Assembly (NCBI GenBank): GCA_934045905.1
Contig: OW203771.1
Coordinates: 3,348,001 to 3,412,000 of the forward strand
Source: Leuctra nigra
Lineage: Eukaryota > Arthropoda > Insecta > Plecoptera > Leuctridae
Direction of reading: 5' to 3'
DNA: 64,000 nucleotides
A model generated the notes under the pieces. That model was given only the letters and a program-made list of their open reading frames with translations, was not told where the DNA came from and ran no database searches. Of this stretch, positions 2,467-36,816 are shown piece after piece. Every line of letters begins with the position of its first letter. Within the stretch, counting starts at the first letter, position 1. Position numbers and translations under genes: made by a program.

Positions 2467-2603
2467 CTGCTGCCGTACACAGCCAGAGCCTGTGAGGCCT
2501 GACGAACAAGATGATGGAGAAGGCAGCGTAGAGGATGGTCTTCTTCCAATCATCCAGCCACAGCACCACGTCCCAATACCGATACACTGGACTGTAGTCA
2601 CTC
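2467..2603 (-). CDS. TMEM72: TMEM72-like gene, internal exon (intact terminal copy of an amplified exon)
   Basis: The acceptor TTGCAG ends at 2604 and has CTCTAAC, a good branch point, about 20 bp upstream. The first base completes the Arg codon from exon 9397-9468. The frame then reads SDYSP, YRYWDVVLWLDDWKKTILY, AAFSIIL and FVRPHRLWLCTAA, ending one base into a Gly codon at a plausible CAG|GTAGCT donor. The W..L..W-K start, a membrane helix, a Pro-containing turn with Trp and a following AG(S) match the third and fourth membrane segments of TMEM72 as I recall them. This is the only copy of the exon that is complete: about 20 upstream copies lack 10 bp and run out of frame. The donor is a choice; without it the frame stays open to a stop at about 2405. 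Downstream exons were not recognised in the remaining 2.4 kb and may lie outside the window. Confidence 0.7.
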
Positions 2604-5600
2604 CTGCAACATCAGTGCTTGCGTTAGAGCTCTGCATGCTGTGATATGTCAATGCCATGCCTGTGAGCAAGATGATGGAGAAGGCAGCGTAGAGGATGGT
2701 CTTCTTCCAATCATCCAGCCACAGCACCACGTCCCAATACCGATACACTGGACTGTAGTCACTCCTGCAACATCAGTGCTTGCGTTAGAGATCTGCATGC
2801 TGTGATATGTCAATGCCATGCCTGTGAGCAAGATGATAGAGAAGGCAGCGTAGAGGATGGTCTTCTTCCAATCATCCAGCCACAGCACCACGTCCCAATA
2901 CCGATACACTGGACTGTAGTCACTCCTGCAACATCAGTGCTTGCGTTAGAGATCTGCATGCTGTGATATGTCAATGCCATGCCTGTGAGCAAGATGATGG
3001 AGAAGGCAGCGTAGAGGATGGTCTTCTTCCAATCATCCAGCCACAGCACCACGTCCCAATACCGATACACTGGACTGTAGTCACTCCTGCAACATCAGTG
3101 CTTGCGTTAGAGATCTGCATGCTGTGATATGTCAATGCCATGCCTGTGAGCAAGATGATAGAGAAGGCAGCGTAGAGGATGGTCTTCTTCCAATCATCCA
3201 GCCACAGCACCACGTCCCAATACCGATACACTGGACTGTAGTCACTCCTGCAACATCAGTGCTTGCGTTAGAGATCTGCATGCTGTGATATGTCAATGCC
3301 ATGCCTGTGAGCAAGATGATGGAGAAGGCAGCGTAGAGGATGGTCTTCTTCCAATCATCCAGCCACAGCACCACGTCCCAATACCGATACACTGGACTGT
3401 AGTCACTCCTGCAACATCAGTGCTTGCGTTAGAGATCTGCATGTTGTGATATGTCAATGCCATGCCTGTGAGCAAGATGATGGAGAAGGCAGCGTAGAGG
3501 ATGGTCTTCTTCCAATCATCCAGCCACAGCACCACGTCCCAATACCGATACACTGGACTGTAGTCACTCCTGCAACATCAGTGCTTGCGTTAGAGCTCTG
3601 CATGCTGTGATATGTCAATGCCATGCCTGTGAGCAAGATGATAGAGAAGGCAGCGTAGAGGATGGTCTTCTTCCAATCATCCAGCCACAGCACCACGTCC
3701 CAATACCGATACACTGGACTGTAGTCACTCCTGCAACATCAGTGCTTGCGTTAGAGATCTGCATGTTGTGATATGTCAATGCCATGCCTGTGAGCAAGAT
3801 GATGGAGAAGGCAGCGTAGAGGATGGTCTTCTTCCAGTCATCCAGCCACAGCACCACGTCCCAATACCGATACACTGGACTGTTGTCACTCCTGCAACAT
3901 CAGTGCTTGCGTTAGAGATCTGCATGCTGTGATATGTCAATGCCATGCCTGTGAGCAAGATGATAGAGAAGGCAGCGTAGAGGATGGTCTTCTTCCAATC
4001 ATCCAGCCACAGCACCACGTCCCAATACCGATACACTGGACTGTAGTCACTCCTGCAACATCAGTGCTTGCGTTAGAGATCTGCATGTTGTGATATGTCA
4101 ATGCCATGCCTGTGAGCAAGATGATGGAGAAGGCAGCGTAGAGGATGGTCTTCTTCCAGTCATCCAGCCACAGCACCACGTCCCAATACCGATACACTGG
4201 ACTGTTGTCACTCCTGCAACATCAGTGCTTGCGTTAGAGATCTGCATGCTGTGATATGTCAATGCCATGCCTGTGAGCAAGATGATGGAGAAGGCAGCGT
4301 AGAGGATGGTCTTCTTCCAATCATCCAGCCACAGCACCACGTCCCAATACCGATACACTGGACTGTAGTCACTCCTGCAACATCAGTGCTTGCGTTAGAG
4401 ATCTGCATGCTGTGATATGTCAATGCCATGCCTGTGAGCAAGATGATAGAGAAGGCAGCGTAGAGGATGGTCTTCTTCCAATCATCCAGCCACAGCACCA
4501 CGTCCCAATACCGATACACTGGACTGTAGTCACTCCTGCAACATCAGTGCTTGCGTTAGAGATCTGCATGCTGTGATATGTCAATGCCATGCCTGTGAGC
4601 AAGATGATGGAGAAGGCAGCGTAGAGGATGGTCTTCTTCCAATCATCCAGCCACAGCACCACGTCCCAATACCGATACACTGGACTGTAGTCACTCCTGC
4701 AACATCAGTGCTTGCGTTAGAGATCTGCATGTTGTGATATGTCAATGCCATGCCTGTGAGCAAGATGATGGAGAAGGCAGCGTAGAGGATGGTCTTCTTC
4801 CAATCATCCAGCCACAGCACCACGTCCCAATACCGATACACTGGACTGTAGTCACTCCTGCAACATCAGTGCTTGCGTTAGAGCTCTGCATGCTGTGATA
4901 TGTCAATGCCATGCCTGTGAGCAAGATGATAGAGAAGGCAGCGTAGAGGATGGTCTTCTTCCAATCATCCAGCCACAGCACCACGTCCCAATACCGATAC
5001 ACTGGACTGTAGTCACTCCTGCAACATCAGTGCTTGCGTTAGAGATCTGCATGTTGTGATATGTCAATGCCATGCCTGTGAGCAAGATGATGGAGAAGGC
5101 AGCGTAGAGGATGGTCTTCTTCCAGTCATCCAGCCAAGGCACCACGTCCCAATACCGATACACTGGACTGTTGTCACTCCTGCAACATCAGTGCTTGCGT
5201 TAGAGATCTGCATGCTGTGATATGTCAATGCCATGCCTGTGAGCAAGATGATAGAGAAGGCAGCGTAGAGGATGGTCTTCTTCCAATCATCCAGCCACAG
5301 CACCACGTCCCAATACCGATACACTGGACTGTAGTCACTCCTGCAACATCAGTGCTTGCGTTAGAGATCTGCATGTTGTGATATGTCAATGCCATGCCTG
5401 TGAGCAAGATGATGGAGAAGGCAGCGTAGAGGATGGTCTTCTTCCAGTCATCCAGCCACAGCACCACGTCCCAATACCGATACACTGGACTGTTGTCACT
5501 CCTGCAACATCAGTGCTTGCGTTAGAGATCTGCATGCTGTGATATGTCAATGCCATGCCTGTGAGCAAGATGATGGAGAAGGCAGCGTAGAGGATGGTCT

Positions 5601-5878
5601 TCTTCCAATCATCCAGCCACAGCACCACGTCCCAATACCGATACACTGGACTGTAGTCACTCCTGCAACATCAGTGCTTGCGTTAGAGATCTGCATGCTG
5701 TGATATGTCAATGCCATGCCTGTGAGCAAGATGATGGAGAAGGCAGCGTAGAGGATGGTCTTCTTCCAATCATCCAGCCACAGCACCACGTCCCAATACC
5801 GATACACTGGACTGTAGTCACTCCTGCAACATCAGTGCTTGCGTTAGAGATCTGCATGCTGTGGTATGTCAATGCCAT
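2489..5878 (-). repeat. 161-bp tandem array of partial exon plus 3' splice site (about 20 decoy copies)
   Basis: About 21 head-to-tail units of exactly 161 bp are present, the lowest-coordinate one being the intact exon. On the minus strand each unit holds about 56 bp of intron end (with CTCTAAC and TTGCAG) and about 105 bp of exon. Relative to the intact exon each unit lacks ten bases (TTCGTCAGGC) before a shared CTCACAGG, then jumps back into intron. Because 161 is not a multiple of three, splicing into any decoy shifts frame and soon meets a stop. Diagnostic substitutions show that an 8-unit block (about 3232-4519) is repeated as 4520-5807. The upper edge is interrupted by a hAT insertion at 5879. 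The repeated short open frames starting at GTG are not separate genes. Confidence 0.9.
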
Positions 5879-7858: not shown

Positions 7859-8030
7859 AAATACGAGTAACTAAAAACTAAAATTATAAATTGGACTTTG
7901 TTTTACCTCCTAAGTGAATACGAGTAACTAAAAACTAAAATTATAAATTGGACTTTGTTTTACCTCCTAAGTGAATACGAGTAACTAAAAACTAAAATTA
8001 TAAATTGGACTTTGTTTTACCTCCTAAGTG
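7859..8030. repeat. 57-bp tandem repeat, three units
   Basis: Three essentially identical head-to-tail units begin ATACGAGTAACTAAAAACTA and end TTTACCTCCTAAGTG. They lie in the intron between TMEM72-like exons; no splice-site copy is evident. Confidence 0.9.
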
Positions 8031-9354: not shown

Positions 9355-9396
9355 TGTTCCAACACTAGTACATAGACCCAAGAGAGTAACACAAAC

Positions 9397-9468
9397 CTTA
9401 AACAGACGTGTAGGAATAGCGTCACCAGCCATGTCAGTTCCAGCAGAAACACGACGACAGACGTCACA
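9397..9468 (-). CDS. TMEM72: TMEM72-like gene, internal exon encoding a membrane helix
   Basis: This 72-bp exon lies between a CTGTTACAG acceptor and an AAG|GTTTGT donor. Its first base completes the isoleucine codon left open by exon 16634-16694. The frame then reads VTSVVVFLLELTWLVTLFL followed by HVCL, and stops two bases into an Arg codon. This is a hydrophobic helix with a buried Glu, an aromatic residue three positions on and a Cys near the end, the pattern I recall for the second membrane segment of TMEM72. The other two frames have no membrane-like content. The intron upstream is about 7.2 kb and its 3' end is a 28-unit 78-bp minisatellite that repeats this acceptor. A retroposed element (8899-9354) lies in the next intron, with its target duplication ending about 30 bp from this exon's donor. 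The donor is weaker than that of the previous exon. Confidence 0.7.
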
Positions 9469-11646
9469 CTGTAACAGATACAAGACACATCAGTACGTCT
9501 CTCTTGCTCTCTAGTTCATAACATAGGTCTGTCCTTGTCTATCACACTGTAACAGATACAAGACACATCAGTACGTCTCTCTTGCTCTCTAGTCCTAGAC
9601 ATAGGTCTGTCCTTGTCTATCACACTGAAACAGATACAAGACACATCAGTACGTCTCTCTTGCTCTCTAGTCCTAGACATAGGTCTGTCCTTGTCTATCA
9701 CACTGTAACAGATACAAGACACATCAGTACGTCTCTCTTGCTCTCTAGTCCTAGACATAGGTCTGTCCTTGTCTATCACACTGTAACAGACACAAGACAC
9801 ATCAGTACGTCTCTCTTGCTCTCTAGTCCTAGACATAGGTCTGTCCTTGTCTATCACACTGTAACAGATACAAGACACATCAGTACGTCTCTCTTGCTCT
9901 CTAGTCCTAGACATAGGTCTGTCCTTGTCTATCACACTGTAACAGATACAAGACACATCAGTACGTCTCTCTTGCTCTCTAGTCCTAGACATAGGTCTGT
10001 CCTTGTCTATCACACTGTAACAGACACAAGACACATCAGTACGTCTCTCTTGCTCTCTAGTCCTAGACATAGGTCTGTCCTTGTCTATCACACTGTAACA
10101 GATACAAGACACATCAGTACGTCTCTCTTGCTCTCTAGTCCTAGACATAGGTCTGTCCTTGTCTATCACACTGTAACAGATACAAGACACATCAGTACGT
10201 CTCTCTTGCTCTCTAGTCCTAGACATAGGTCTGTCCTTGTCTATCACACTGTAACAGAGACAAGACAAGTCAGTACGTCTCTCTTGCTCTCTAGTCCTAG
10301 ACATAGGTCTGTCCTTGTCTATCACACTGTAACAGATACAAGACACGTCAGTACGTCTCTCTTGCTCTCTAGTTCATAACATAGGTCTGTCCTTGTCTAT
10401 CACACTGTAACAGATACAAGACACATCAGTACGTCTCTCTTGCTCTCTAGTCCTAGACATAGGTATGTCCTTGTCTATCACACTGTAACAGAGACAAGAC
10501 ACATCAGTACGTCTCTCTTGCTCTCTAGTCCTAGACATAGGTCTGTCCTTGTCTATCACACTGTAACAGATACAAGACACATCAGTAGGTCTCTCTCGCC
10601 CTCTAGTCCTAGACATAGGTCTGTCCTTGTCTATCACACTGTAACAGATACAAGACACATCAGTACGTTTCTCTTGCTCTCTAGTCCTAGACATAGGTCT
10701 GTCCTTGTCTATCACACTGTAACAGATACAAGACACGTCAGTACGTCTCTCTTGCTCTCTAGTCCTAGACATAGGTCTGTCCTTGTCTATCACACTGTAA
10801 CAGATACAAGACACGTCAGTACGTCTCTCTTGCTCTCTAGTCCTAGACATAGGTCTGTCCTTGTCTATCACACTGTAACAGATACAAGACACATCAGTAC
10901 GTCTCTCTTGCTCTCTAGTCCTAGACATAGGTCTGTCCTTGTCTATCACACTGTAACAGATACAAGACACATCAGTACGTCTCTCTTGCTCTCTAGTCCT
11001 AGACATAGGTATGTCCTTGTCTGTCACACTGTAACAGATACAAGACACGTCAGTACGTCTCTCTTGCTCTCTAGTCCTAGACATAGGTCTGTCCTTGTCT
11101 ATCACACTGTAACAGAGACAAGACACATCAGTACGTCTCTCTTGCTCTCTAGTCCTAGACATAGGTCTGTCCTTGTCTATCACACTGTAACAGATACAAG
11201 ACACATCAGTACGTCTCTCTTGCTCTCTAGTCCTAGACATAGGTCTGTCCTTGTCTGTCACACTGTAACAGAGACAAGACACATCAGTACGTCTCTCTTG
11301 CTCTCTAGTCCTAGACATAGGTCTGTCCTTGTCTATCACACTGTAACAGATACAAGACACACTAGTACGTCTCTCTTGCTCTCTAGTCCTAGACATGGGT
11401 CTGTCCTTGTCTATCACACTGTAACAGATACAAGACACATCAGTACGTCTCTCTTGCTCTCTAGTCCTAGACATGGGTCTGTCCTTGTCTATCACACTGT
11501 AACAGATACAAGACACACTAGTACGTCTCTCTTGCTCTCTAGTCCTAGACATAGGTCTGTCCTTGTCTATCACACTGTAACAGATACAAGACACATCAGT
11601 ACGTCTCTCTTGCTCTCTAGTCCTAGACATGGGTCTGTCCTTGTCC
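9464..11646 (-). repeat. 78-bp minisatellite (about 28 units) copying a 3' splice site
   Basis: The unit is 78 bp, about 2.18 kb in total, with over 90% identity between units. On the minus strand each unit contains ATCTGTTACAG followed by TGTGA, which is the acceptor and first five exon bases of exon 9397-9468; after that the unit diverges from the exon. The genuine exon lies directly at the array's downstream edge. Variant spacing suggests internal block duplications: a TTCATAAC variant occurs twice 858 bp (11 units) apart, and a C-for-T variant recurs at 3-unit spacing. As 78 is divisible by three and the unit lacks stops in some frames, long open frames appear on both strands; they show no composition of a real protein and are treated as artefacts. 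Confidence 0.92.
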
Positions 11647-11759: not shown

Positions 11760-12381
11760 GCTTGTGTTTTTGTACGCAATGCCCAGTTAACACCGTTCAA
11801 CCAATTGATCTGAAATATTTTGCACACACTAATGTGATGCTTCTGTAGTTTTAGAAAGAAATCCTGAGATTTATTGAAAATTAAAAAATGGAACCGTTTG
11901 ACAGATAGTACAAATTTAAATTTTGCATGGTGATTGGAAACAACATTTTAGATGAAATATGATTTTTACTGAATCCCTCAGTTAGGTGAATGTTAATAAA
12001 TACCAACTGCAATGTGAAAAGATTTTCCTCGAGTGGGAGTCGAACCCACGAGGAAGGTCGTGGGTTCGAGTCCCACTCGAGGAAAATCTTTTCACATTGC
12101 AGTTGGTATTTATTAACATTTTAGATGTGTATCATTTTTCTGACAAATTGGTTAAGAAAATCATGAGTATTTGGCATTTTACTGATATCTTATATTTGTT
12201 TTGCACTATTTGTCAGCTTTATGCAAAGAAATTTAAAAAATATCACTCAATCTTTGACGCATTTGATAACCTATTTTGTTCTATACATCATCTAGAGCAG
12301 CAACTTTAATAAACATACGAAAAAAATCGCATGTCATACGAAGGCTCGCTCATCAACGCTTTAGAAAGAGCGTTTTCCTAG
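11760..12381 (+). mobile_element. Helitron-like element, 3' end at 12381
   Basis: The body resembles other dispersed copies (CAACCAATTGATCTGAAAT near 11800). It ends with GCTCGCTCATCAACGC, a short stem-loop (AACGCT...AGCGTT) and TTCCTAG followed by T. A hairpin just before a CTAG end, with T next, is the Helitron 3' signature. The 5' limit is approximate, and the hairpin 11989-12120 is nested inside. No helicase is encoded. Confidence 0.6.
11989..12120. repeat. 63-bp-arm near-perfect hairpin containing a tRNA-like B box
   Basis: Left arm 11989-12051 and right arm 12058-12120 are inverted copies with one mismatch in 63 bp and a 6-base spacer. The centre of the right arm reads GTGGGTTCGAGTCCCAC, a complete TψC stem-loop that matches a Pol III B box. 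The arms extend past it into sequence unlike a tRNA. It may be a snap-back copy of a tRNA 3' half or a SINE piece. No A box or anticodon arm is present, so it is not a tRNA gene. Confidence 0.8.
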
Positions 12382-12591
12382 TTCAACGCGGGTAACTGCC
12401 GTCACCAGGCGCTTCCTATCTGTTTTTGCTTTTGCCTACCTTCACATGCACTTCTATAAAGTGATACCTTGCATAATGATATAGTAAATTTCATCAACTT
12501 TGTATTTGTATTTATAGATTTTATTTAGCTTACTAAGCCAGTAACATTACAGATACACTTGTTACCAACAGCACATATATTACACTTAGAA

Positions 12592-13077
12592 TACATCATC
12601 AACTGATTGTCGCTTTATCCACACAATACAATGAGCTTTAAATGAACATACATGTTTTTCATTTCTAATGTCTACAGGTAACCTGTCATAAATTTTGCTT
12701 CCAGTGTTAAAAATTGATGCATACCATTTCTTACTATAACAGTGTTTCTTAAACCACATTCCACTGCTGGCTGCTCTAGTACTAATATTATAAATTGTTT
12801 TAACATTATCTAATTTATCTAAGATGTATTGTGGCATAAGGCCAATACTCTTCAGTAACGCTATGAAAATCGCGAGATTGTGGTGCATTCTCCAGTCAAC
12901 GTTAGTGCCACAATTTCCTCTGCTTTTCTTGGTTCTTTCATTAATTCGGCTTGCTTTGTACATGTCAAACCGCTTTGTATTTGAATGAAAGAAAAATACA
13001 ATCATAGAAACACCACTACATGGTAAGGGTTCAATATACTTGCTTTTTCGATATTCATAATCGCTTGACACATACAT
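12592..13077 (-). pseudogene. Degenerate non-LTR reverse transcriptase C-terminus
   Basis: A 163-residue open frame ends with a Y-D-R-L-P-V-D-I-R-N motif followed by F-K-A-H and an aromatic, basic tail. In many LINE-type ORF2 proteins a W/Y-N-x-L-P-x-x-I/V-R-N motif followed by a short FK...L helix marks the extreme C-terminus. No catalytic YADD box or fingers are present, and the adjoining frame upstream does not continue it. It is best read as a 5'-truncated, decayed insertion, possibly nested in the intron of the TMEM72-like gene. The family call rests on this tail motif only. Confidence 0.45.
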
Positions 13078-13792: not shown

Positions 13793-14061
13793 GCTAATTA
13801 TTTACTCCACGGTATCAAACTTTAGGAGGTAATTTTATACCCATTTTTTGGGAATCCTATTAATGATATTTAGAAAATATTTGAAATACAACTTTTTTCC
13901 TTTAAATACCCCTACACGCAACCCGCAATACAGCCATGTGTTGTGGGTGTCATCAGGTAAACGGCACCTCCACCAAGTTAAATATTTCTTAAATTTTCTC
14001 AATAGGATACCCAGAAAAAGTGTATCAAAACTTCCTTCAAAAGTTGCATATTAGTGGTGTA
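13793..14061. mobile_element. Decayed member of the TACTCCAC foldback family
   Basis: Inverted arms (AATTATTTACTCCAC... and ...TTGCATATTAGTGGTGT) match the inner arms of 36979-37366, 49790-50127 and 56502-56880, but the outer CCTGGGGACC ends are missing. A Helitron-like 3' end begins immediately after it. Confidence 0.6.
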
Positions 14062-14063
14062 AA

Positions 14064-15422
14064 CTAGGAAAACGCTCAGTGTAACGCGTTGATGAGCGAG
14101 CACGGGTACGTGCAAATTCTGGAACCGGAAATGCGTACACAACGCACAGAAAACATATACAACCATATTGAATTGATTATGATCAGTGCTCGAAGTAGGA
14201 ATTAAATAGTGGCGGTATGGTAACATAAGAATACCACGTGAGGGGGGGGGGGGGGTGGGGGGTACGATATTAGATGAGGGTCCAGATTCCAGAATTACAC
14301 TGACAACCATTGTCATGTCATTAGTTAGATTAGTCTTTTACCTTGATGAAACAACTAAATTAAATAATGCATTTTACTTTATCTTGTAGTGGATGTTCAT
14401 AGTTCATAGTTATGCTTGAAATATGCAGTCAAAAGATAACCATGAAATACGAGTAAATTAGAATATAAAATTACGTTAATGTCCAAGAATATCTGATTTT
14501 AAGTATTCCGTTTTTCTGAGAAGTAACAATATGAAATCAAATGTGTAAAGAAGAACCGGTATACCATACCGTCCCATACCGGCCCACTTCGAGCACTGAT
14601 TATGATATCAACTTAAAAGTAGGTATATGCTTTTCATCGAAACTTTAAAATAGCATCTAAGCACCTGGTTCATAAAGCAAATCAGAATCAATTCAATTGG
14701 CACTGGAAAACATTCATTTCGATACTTCATTACTGACAGATATTAAAAATGTCAATAAGTTCAAACGTTCTTAACTGATTGAGATGAAATTTTGTAAAAT
14801 AAGAGACAATATTGGTCTTAATGATCATGCAAAATATGAGTTTGATCAGAATTATCGAAGACCGTTTTCATTTTTCAGCCTATCAGGAGATATTTATTTA
14901 ATTTTTAACCAATGAATGGATTTCAAAAAAAAATATGGTGTGCAAACAGAGAAGGTTGGTTTTACATGTGTGCAAAATTTCAGCTCGATCAAAGAAAAAC
15001 TCTGAGCTGTATAGCCAAAATATGATTTTGATCAGATTTATCGAAGACCAGTTTCATTTTTCAACCTACCATCAGGAGATGTTTATTTAAATTTTAGCCA
15101 ATTGATAAATTTCAAAAAAATTTGGGGTCTGCAAACAGAAAAGTTTGTCTCTACATGTGTGCAAAATTTCAGCTCGATCGAGGAAAAACTCTAGACATGT
15201 ACAGCCAAAATATGAGTTTGATCAGATTTGTCGAAGACCATTTTCACTTTTCAACCTATCAGGAGATGTTTATTTAAATTTTAACCAATCAGTAGATTTC
15301 AAAAAAATTAGGGTCTGCAACGCCCAGAGAATGTCCAAACACGTGTGCAAAATTTCAGCTCGATCGAAGAAAAACTCTGACCTGTATATCGTCAGTAACA
15401 GAAAAAAACAAAAACAAAAAAA

Positions 15423-16633: not shown

Positions 16634-16694
16634 ATGATGGCGACGCCCGTGGTGAAATGATGGAACGTGAAGTCCACGCCGACTCCGCACAGCA
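16634..16694 (-). CDS. TMEM72: TMEM72-like gene, internal exon (first recognised exon)
   Basis: This 61-bp exon has a strong 3' splice site: a CT-rich tract (TTCTCTCTCTCTCT) and GTTGCAG end at 16695, with a branch-point-like TGACTGAC further upstream. The 5' splice site is a consensus GTGAGT starting at 16633. With one base supplied by the previous exon it reads VLCGVGVDFTFHHFTTGVA and ends two bases into the next codon (phase 2). The piece VLxGVG followed by an aromatic-rich stretch resembles the end of the first membrane segment and the first loop of vertebrate TMEM72, a four-pass membrane protein of unclear function (recalled, not searched). The two-base overhang fits exon 9397-9468 exactly. 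The start-codon exon should lie at higher coordinates; I did not find it. Homology is inferred from short peptides, but splice signals and phase support it independently. Confidence 0.72.
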
Positions 16695-16933
16695 CTGCAA
16701 CAGAGAGAGAGAGAAGATGGTCAGTCACGTGGGAGAGAGGGAGATGGAGATAGTCTCACTCTTGCTGAGGAGGAATCATTCAGAGGCGTTGAAGTTTTAG
16801 GAGGATATTTCAAAACATTGCAAGGTTTTGAAATTGATATTTGTGTAGGCTCAAGAAATGTTGTGCAACAAACAGCATAAACTAGGATAAAACTAAATGT
16901 CTTATTATGATCTAAATAATGAAATATTATGAT

Positions 16934-17494
16934 CTTTTATTACATAAACACAAATGGTCAATAAGTATGAAAATGGTCGAAAAATAGAGTATGAAAATGG
17001 TCGAAAAATAGATAGATGAGATGTGTTACAAAATCATGAAAATATGTGAATTTTACAATGGTGGCAGAAGTGGGACATTACTAATTATATTAGGAAGTTG
17101 ACATTCATTGAACTTTCAAAGCTGAATTACTTCCAAAACTTATGTCACACATTTTATAAACATTTGTTTATTTTAATTTGAGTTACATCACGATGTAACT
17201 AAAATTAAAATAAACAAAAGACATTTAGTCTTAAGAAAAAAATAAAGTTACATCGTGAAGTAACTCAAATTAAAATAAACAAATGTTTATAAAATGTGTG
17301 ACATAAGTTTTAGAAGTAATTCGGCTTTGAAAGTCAATGAATGTCAGCTTCCTAATATAATTAACAATGTCCCACTTCTGTCACCATTGTAAAATTCACA
17401 TATTTTCATGATATTATTTTAACAAATCTCTTCTGTCTATATTTCGACAATATTTTTAAACTTATTGACCATTTGTGTTTATGTAATAAAATAT
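16934..17494. mobile_element. Long foldback element (arms about 250 bp)
   Basis: The left arm (16934-17220) and right arm (17246-17494) are inverted copies. Shared pieces include ATAAACACAAATGGTCAATA and GTTACATCGTGA. The left arm carries an extra 24-bp direct duplication (AGTATGAAAATGGTCG at about 16966 and 16989). It is non-coding and lies upstream of the first recognised TMEM72-like exon. Confidence 0.8.
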
Positions 17495-36172: not shown

Positions 36173-36816
36173 TTCGATATTGCAGTGTTGCATGTTGCAG
36201 TGTTGCATGTTGCAGTGTTGCAGTGTTGCAGTGTTGCAGTGTTGCAGTGTTGCATGTTGCAGTGTTGCATGTTGCAGTGTTGTATGTTGCATGTTGCAGT
36301 GTTGCATGTTGCAGTGTTGCATGTTGCAGTGTTGCATGTTGCAGTGTTGCATGTTGCATGTTGCAGTGTTGCATGTTGCAGTGTTGCATGTTGCAGTGTT
36401 GCATGTTGCAGTGTTGCATGTTGCAGTGTTGCATGTTGCAGTGTTGCATGTTGCAGTGTTGCATGTTGCAGTGTTGCATGTTGCAGTGTTGCATGTTGCA
36501 GTGTTGAATGTTGCAGTGTTGCATGTTGCAGTGTTGCATGTTGCAGTGTTGTATGTTGCAGTGTTGTATGTTGCAGTGTTGTATGTTGCAGTGTTGCATG
36601 TTGCAGTGTTGCAGAGTTGCAGTGTTGCAGTGTTGCATGTTGCAGTGTTGCAGTGTTGCAGTGTTGCAGGGTTGCAGTGTTGCAGTGTTGCATGTTGCGG
36701 TGTTGCAGTGTTGCAGTGTTGCATGTTGCAGTGTTGCATGTTGCAGTGTTGCATGTTGCAGTGTTGTATGTTGCAGTGTTGCAGTGTTGCATGTTGCAGT
36801 GTTGCATGTTGCAGGG
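36173..36816. repeat. TGTTGCAG / TGTTGCATGTTGCAG composite array
   Basis: About 640 bp of 8-bp (TGTTGCAG) and 15-bp (TGTTGCATGTTGCAG) units alternate in blocks. G homopolymers lie just outside both ends (36121-36134 and 36829-36839). Six frames are open because the repeat rarely makes a stop; the resulting Cys/Val/Leu or Gln/His/Asn peptides are artefacts. Confidence 0.95.

Follow-up and report, generated by a model that had tools for sequence, protein, structure and literature searches.

Mirage-type minisatellites with decoy splice acceptors before two consecutive TMEM72 exons of Leuctra nigra

Tandem repeats lying across an intron-exon boundary, with splice signals in many of their units, have been described in amphioxus as "mirage" minisatellites, with examples in Adh3, in the globin genes BflGb6 and BflGb9, in TnC, and in PGBD5 (PMC3087553, PMC3902484). 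According to passages of these reports, the BflGb6 unit combines the 3' end of an intron with the 5' part of an exon, is 150-160 bp long, and occurs as 3 and 6 units in two haplotypes, while RT-PCR data for the Adh3 and globin mirages are said to suggest regular splicing (PMC3087553, PMC3902484). Passages on PGBD5 place repeats at a 5' and at a 3' splice site of this one gene (PMC3902484). Internal tandem repeats are also described in human genes within segmental duplications, where they are attributed to minisatellite expansion and where repeats at exon-intron boundaries may cause novel introns; their units average 30 bp and are repeated 4 times, and the passages concerned do not mention arrays of acceptors preceding one intact exon (PMC2812944).

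Here, we report a large insect case of the mirage repeat type, consisting of two arrays (A and B) in the gene TMEM72 of Leuctra nigra. In both, the units span an intron-exon boundary and bear splice signals, and one authentic boundary stands at the array end. We interpret them, with a probability of roughly 0.7, as two neutral minisatellites of this type that are tolerated through exon definition. Array A is built in the same way as BflGb6, as far as passages on the latter describe it, and has a very similar unit length. The TMEM72 arrays differ from the amphioxus mirages in belonging to an insect, not a cephalochordate, and in their extent, as the decoys number 20 and 27 and precede two acceptors in succession, compared with the BflGb6 unit numbers given in those passages. 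Parts of the amphioxus literature also report length polymorphism and somatic instability, whereas the TMEM72 arrays are known here from one sequence. Among the matches listed by a literature search using few terms and covering little subscription literature, minisatellites under the mirage name were found only in amphioxus, with no insect case. The TMEM72 arrays bring mirage-type minisatellites to an insect, at copy numbers above the globin example.

Two further systems multiply splice sites or exons. A minisatellite in human IFI6 (6-16) reportedly gives rise to multiple splice donor sites, to judge by the title of a 1995 paper by Turri et al. Both it and the TMEM72 arrays multiply a splice site, but the sites in IFI6 are donors that, by that title, are available to the transcript, and those in TMEM72 are acceptors. 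In tandem exon clusters of the Dscam1 type, every copy has an acceptor and a donor and encodes a variant. These share tandem exon copies with the TMEM72 arrays, whose decoys, however, lack a donor and are nearly identical.

The TMEM72 exons and their acceptor arrays

The analysed window is a 64,000-nt stretch of contig OW203771.1 (assembly GCA_934045905.1, positions 3,348,001 to 3,412,000). The features below carry the analysis; a slash in a motif marks the splice junction.

2467..2603, minus strand: TMEM72 exon of 137 nt, intact, with first base 2603 and donor GT from 2466 (CAG/GTAGCT); from acceptor/donor scan, reading frame, and Pfam
2604..5878, minus strand: array A, 20 decoy units of 161 bp with CTAAC and TTGCAG; from TRF, acceptor positions, and unit alignment
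4214..5501, minus strand: eight-unit block of 1288 bp (array A units 3-10) that recurs at 2926-4213 as units 11-18, the two copies differing at 2 bases overall
5824-5878, minus strand: intron copy ahead of the first array A decoy, within array A
9397..9468, minus strand: previous TMEM72 exon of 72 nt, with donor GT from 9396; from acceptor/donor scan and reading frame
9469..11645, minus strand: array B, 27 decoy acceptors in 78-bp units, abutting the real acceptor of exon 9397-9468; from TRF, acceptor positions, and unit alignment
16634..16694, minus strand: next upstream TMEM72 exon of 61 nt, with donor GT from 16633; from TRF, donor scan, and reading frame

The array A repeat extends by TRF from 2507 to 5878 (period 161, 20.9 copies, 98% matches, and 0 indels). 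On the minus strand, 21 TTGCAG/GAGTGAC acceptors are spaced exactly 161 bp apart, the first 20 being decoys (5823 to 2764) and the last, at 2603, the real acceptor. Of each unit, 106 bp come from the exon, as stretches of 97 bp and 9 bp on either side of a 10-bp gap, and the remaining 55 bp come from the intron end. The 10 exon bases at this gap are missing from all 20 decoys and present in the real exon. Every decoy retains the acceptor AG (20/20) and has, within 40 bases of its acceptor, a branch-point-like CTAAC (20/20) with the branch A at -21. The original prediction for this locus is thus borne out to within one base: about 20 copies amplified directly upstream of the real exon, 161-bp units (no multiple of three) with a branch point, a 3' splice site, and some 105 bp of exon, 10 exon bases lost from every copy except the last, and a donor at 9396, which indeed ends the previous exon.

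Absent from that prediction was a second acceptor array of like design, which precedes the previous exon, 9397-9468. The array B repeat spans 9464-11645 by TRF, and its 78-bp units are each composed of 73 bp of intron end and 5 bp of exon. It holds 28 CAG/TGTGA acceptors at exact 78-bp steps, 27 of them decoys and the last one real. The AG is present in 27/27 decoys, accompanied by a branch-point-like motif that reads TACTGAT in 20 decoys, TACTGAC in 5, and TACTAGT in 2. No tandem array was detected by TRF at the acceptor of the next upstream exon (16694).

Finding two such arrays within one gene suggests either a prone locus or selection. In a random-placement test that was devised after the arrays had been seen, took the window as uniform, and used only the three known exons, arrays of these two lengths both ended inside an exon and covered its acceptor in about 2 per 100,000 trials. 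With seven arrays hand-picked from the TRF list, at least two touched any exon boundary in about 0.14% of random placements.

Splice signals and the predicted outcome of decoy use

All 20 array A decoys are identical to the real acceptor over -23..+3, and the right acceptor therefore could not be selected by any model restricted to these positions. As had been predicted, some 20 near-perfect acceptors would have to be passed over for protein to be made. Over -40..+3, identity in array A is reduced to 2/20 decoys because of one variable base; in array B, 14/27 decoys are identical to the real acceptor over -23..+3 and 12/27 over -40..+3. Given this drop over the longer interval, a more distant signal that marks the real acceptor may exist. 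Array A is a natural test of acceptor choice when local sequence is uninformative, as it offers 21 acceptors identical over 26 bases with one of them beside a donor, and the TMEM72 arrays could serve to weigh exon definition against first-come-first-served splicing.

Donor-like sites were scored with a human-type matrix at a threshold of 3 bits. Across array A, the sole site of at least 3 bits is the real donor at 2466 (6.0 bits), and none lies in any decoy unit by this matrix. A Dscam-type cluster of mutually exclusive exons, in which each copy has its own donor, was consequently rejected for array A. Array B contains two weak donor-like CTA/GTGTGT sites (4.3 bits each, at 11518 and 11362), and the real exon 9397-9468 has an internal donor-like site of 5.2 bits in addition to its true donor of 5.6 bits.

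In light of these signals, how might the real exons be spliced? By local sequence the decoys are complete acceptors, and the real exon would still win if the spliceosome pairs an acceptor with a donor across the exon, since the last copy is the only one with a donor 137 or 72 nt away. We infer from this that splicing is correct, that exon definition is its reason, and that the arrays are neutral; they would be tolerated because the founding duplications omitted the donor. Some leakage is plausible: in place of 137 and 72 nt, use of the nearest decoy would give exons of 298 nt (array A) or 150 nt (array B), which are ordinary sizes, so that exon definition alone may leak.

The outcome of such leakage can be read on paper. 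The expectation of early stops from decoy use holds for 19/20 array A decoys, for all of which the stop falls at one and the same codon of the second unit, but not for the nearest one, which has no stop inside its exon and leaves the frame open but shifted. In array B, an early stop follows from 27/27 decoys because the unit adjoining the exon and unit 16 carry stops. A coding role for array B was considered, as the 78-bp units are in the reading frame of the exon and open in 25/27 cases; it was dropped because all 27 decoys nevertheless end early, and the plus strand of array B is open as well, so that openness is no evidence of coding. Rare decoy use would mostly give early-stop mRNA, and the arrays would therefore represent a small, variable cost and not a device.

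The alternative that survives best, raised in general terms by the original prediction as regulation of expression, is that the arrays are a working damper of expression, with early acceptors catching a share of growing transcripts and array length setting the amount of productive mRNA. The decoys are transcribed ahead of the real acceptor, and it is consistent with such a damper that those of array A match this acceptor over -23..+3, that nearly all decoys of both arrays lead to early stops, and that one gene has two arrays. However, splice signals are kept no better than other unit positions: variable columns number 5/106 in the exon-derived and 2/55 in the intron-derived part of the array A unit, and 6/26 in the acceptor and 11/52 in the other part of the array B unit (Fisher p = 1.0 for each array). 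In neither array do these tests give a sign that decoys are favoured or disfavoured by selection, at a power that is low given the few variable columns (7 in A and 17 in B). Moreover, passages on the amphioxus mirages report that splicing is not disturbed (PMC3087553, PMC3902484), two array A units folded together have no unusual RNA structure, and the arrays are more simply explained as minisatellites. We therefore consider a damper unlikely. Its extended form, in which two serial arrays act as a length-variable damper, each added copy raises commitment to a dead end, and TMEM72 output varies between individuals, seems more doubtful still. The same fold led us to drop the idea that decoys are hidden by pre-mRNA structure, as two array A units are no more stable than shuffled sequence (z -0.40, with 37/100 shuffles equally good).

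Origin and growth of the arrays

Under the neutral minisatellite explanation, tandem duplication would have occurred twice and independently, each time copying an intron end and the start of the next TMEM72 exon and leaving out the donor. All array A decoys have a single common junction and the same single 10-bp gap, so that they go back to one founder duplication, which had this gap and came before amplification. Array B probably arose independently of array A, since its unit length and breakpoints differ. Acceptor-only duplications can thus found mirage-type minisatellites. The units would then have multiplied by unequal exchange or slippage, reaching 20 and 27 extra copies and becoming homogenised in the process, and we favour unequal exchange as the route of expansion. 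Mean pairwise identity between units is 98.7% in array A (20 units) and 96.9% in array B (27 units).

Within array A, units 3-10 and 11-18 are the same 8-unit block, with two adjacent bases differing. This is the mark of either an unequal block exchange or an assembly error, and the latter is the basis for a second alternative, namely that part of the array length is an artefact of assembly, with, for example, the block having been counted twice. The near-identity of the two blocks is what would be expected of such an error. However, the units beyond the block bear their own variant combinations, and array B shows the same architecture with another unit length. We regard an artefact as improbable, and it would alter the copy number and not the existence of the feature.

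The TMEM72 gene and other features of the window

The three exons are open, their phases fit, and their splice sites match. Joined together, they match the Pfam family TMEM72 (PF16054) at 88.1 bits (E 7.3e-25; curated cut-off 29) over profile positions 24-115 of 135. An initial homologue search with this fragment returned cricket and cockroach proteins (2/3 candidates), and a profile search yielded 53 proteins from 945 candidates. The best matches are a metagenome protein (71%) and a protein of the termite Zootermopsis (65%); Gryllus, at 69% over 74 residues, is lower by bit score. These matches point to an insect source, most likely close to the cockroaches, termites, or orthopterans. Using tblastn with homologue N-termini and C-termini, no convincing match to the first or the last exon was found in the window. 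A literature search on TMEM72 and insects gave nothing relevant.

Conservation was assessed against 34 of the 53 homologues, kept by a length of 165-240 and a short motif, with a column called conserved when its uniformity among the other proteins was 90% or more. The fragment keeps 20/20 such columns, as do 22/34 homologues, which likewise have no departures. The test was rerun at changed thresholds and after dropping remote proteins; once two mollusc proteins are removed, the fragment departs at 2/23 columns (C53Y and S86C), and 8/32 homologues depart at two or more. These departures are within the usual range of the homologues, so the fragment is neither unusually conserved nor decayed. The original prediction had also raised a decayed gene. 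Such decay, with the arrays growing for want of selection against them, is very improbable despite the large repeats at 2 of the 3 acceptors seen, the failure to find either terminal exon in the window, and the departures at C53Y and S86C, as the three exons are open with matching phases and donors, the departures are of a normal number, and the real exon 2467-2603 is intact beside 20 copies without its 10 bases.

In the rest of the window, no tRNA genes were found by ARAGORN, the minus-strand ORFs 12586-13077 and 14000-14337 match no Pfam family, a homologue search with the former gave 5 candidates of which none reached 1e-10, and a phage collection, uninformative for the arrays, gave no match. 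Several other repeats were observed. Downstream of exon 2467-2603 is a perfect 222-nt inverted repeat (615-836 and 1512-1733) around 675 nt, a foldback or MITE-like element. The intron that contains array A also has three perfect 57-bp copies (7860-8030), the unit of which reads AGGAGGTAAAAC on the minus strand and is donor-like by eye. At 11989-12120 there is a near-perfect 63-nt inverted repeat with GGTTCGAGTCC, tRNA T-arm-like by eye, at which ARAGORN calls no tRNA, and at 16932-17494 there are nested inverted repeats of 89, 82, and 58 nt. Lastly, a 15-bp unit, TTGCAGTGTTGCATG, is repeated about 42 times at 36180-36813 and is open in several frames.
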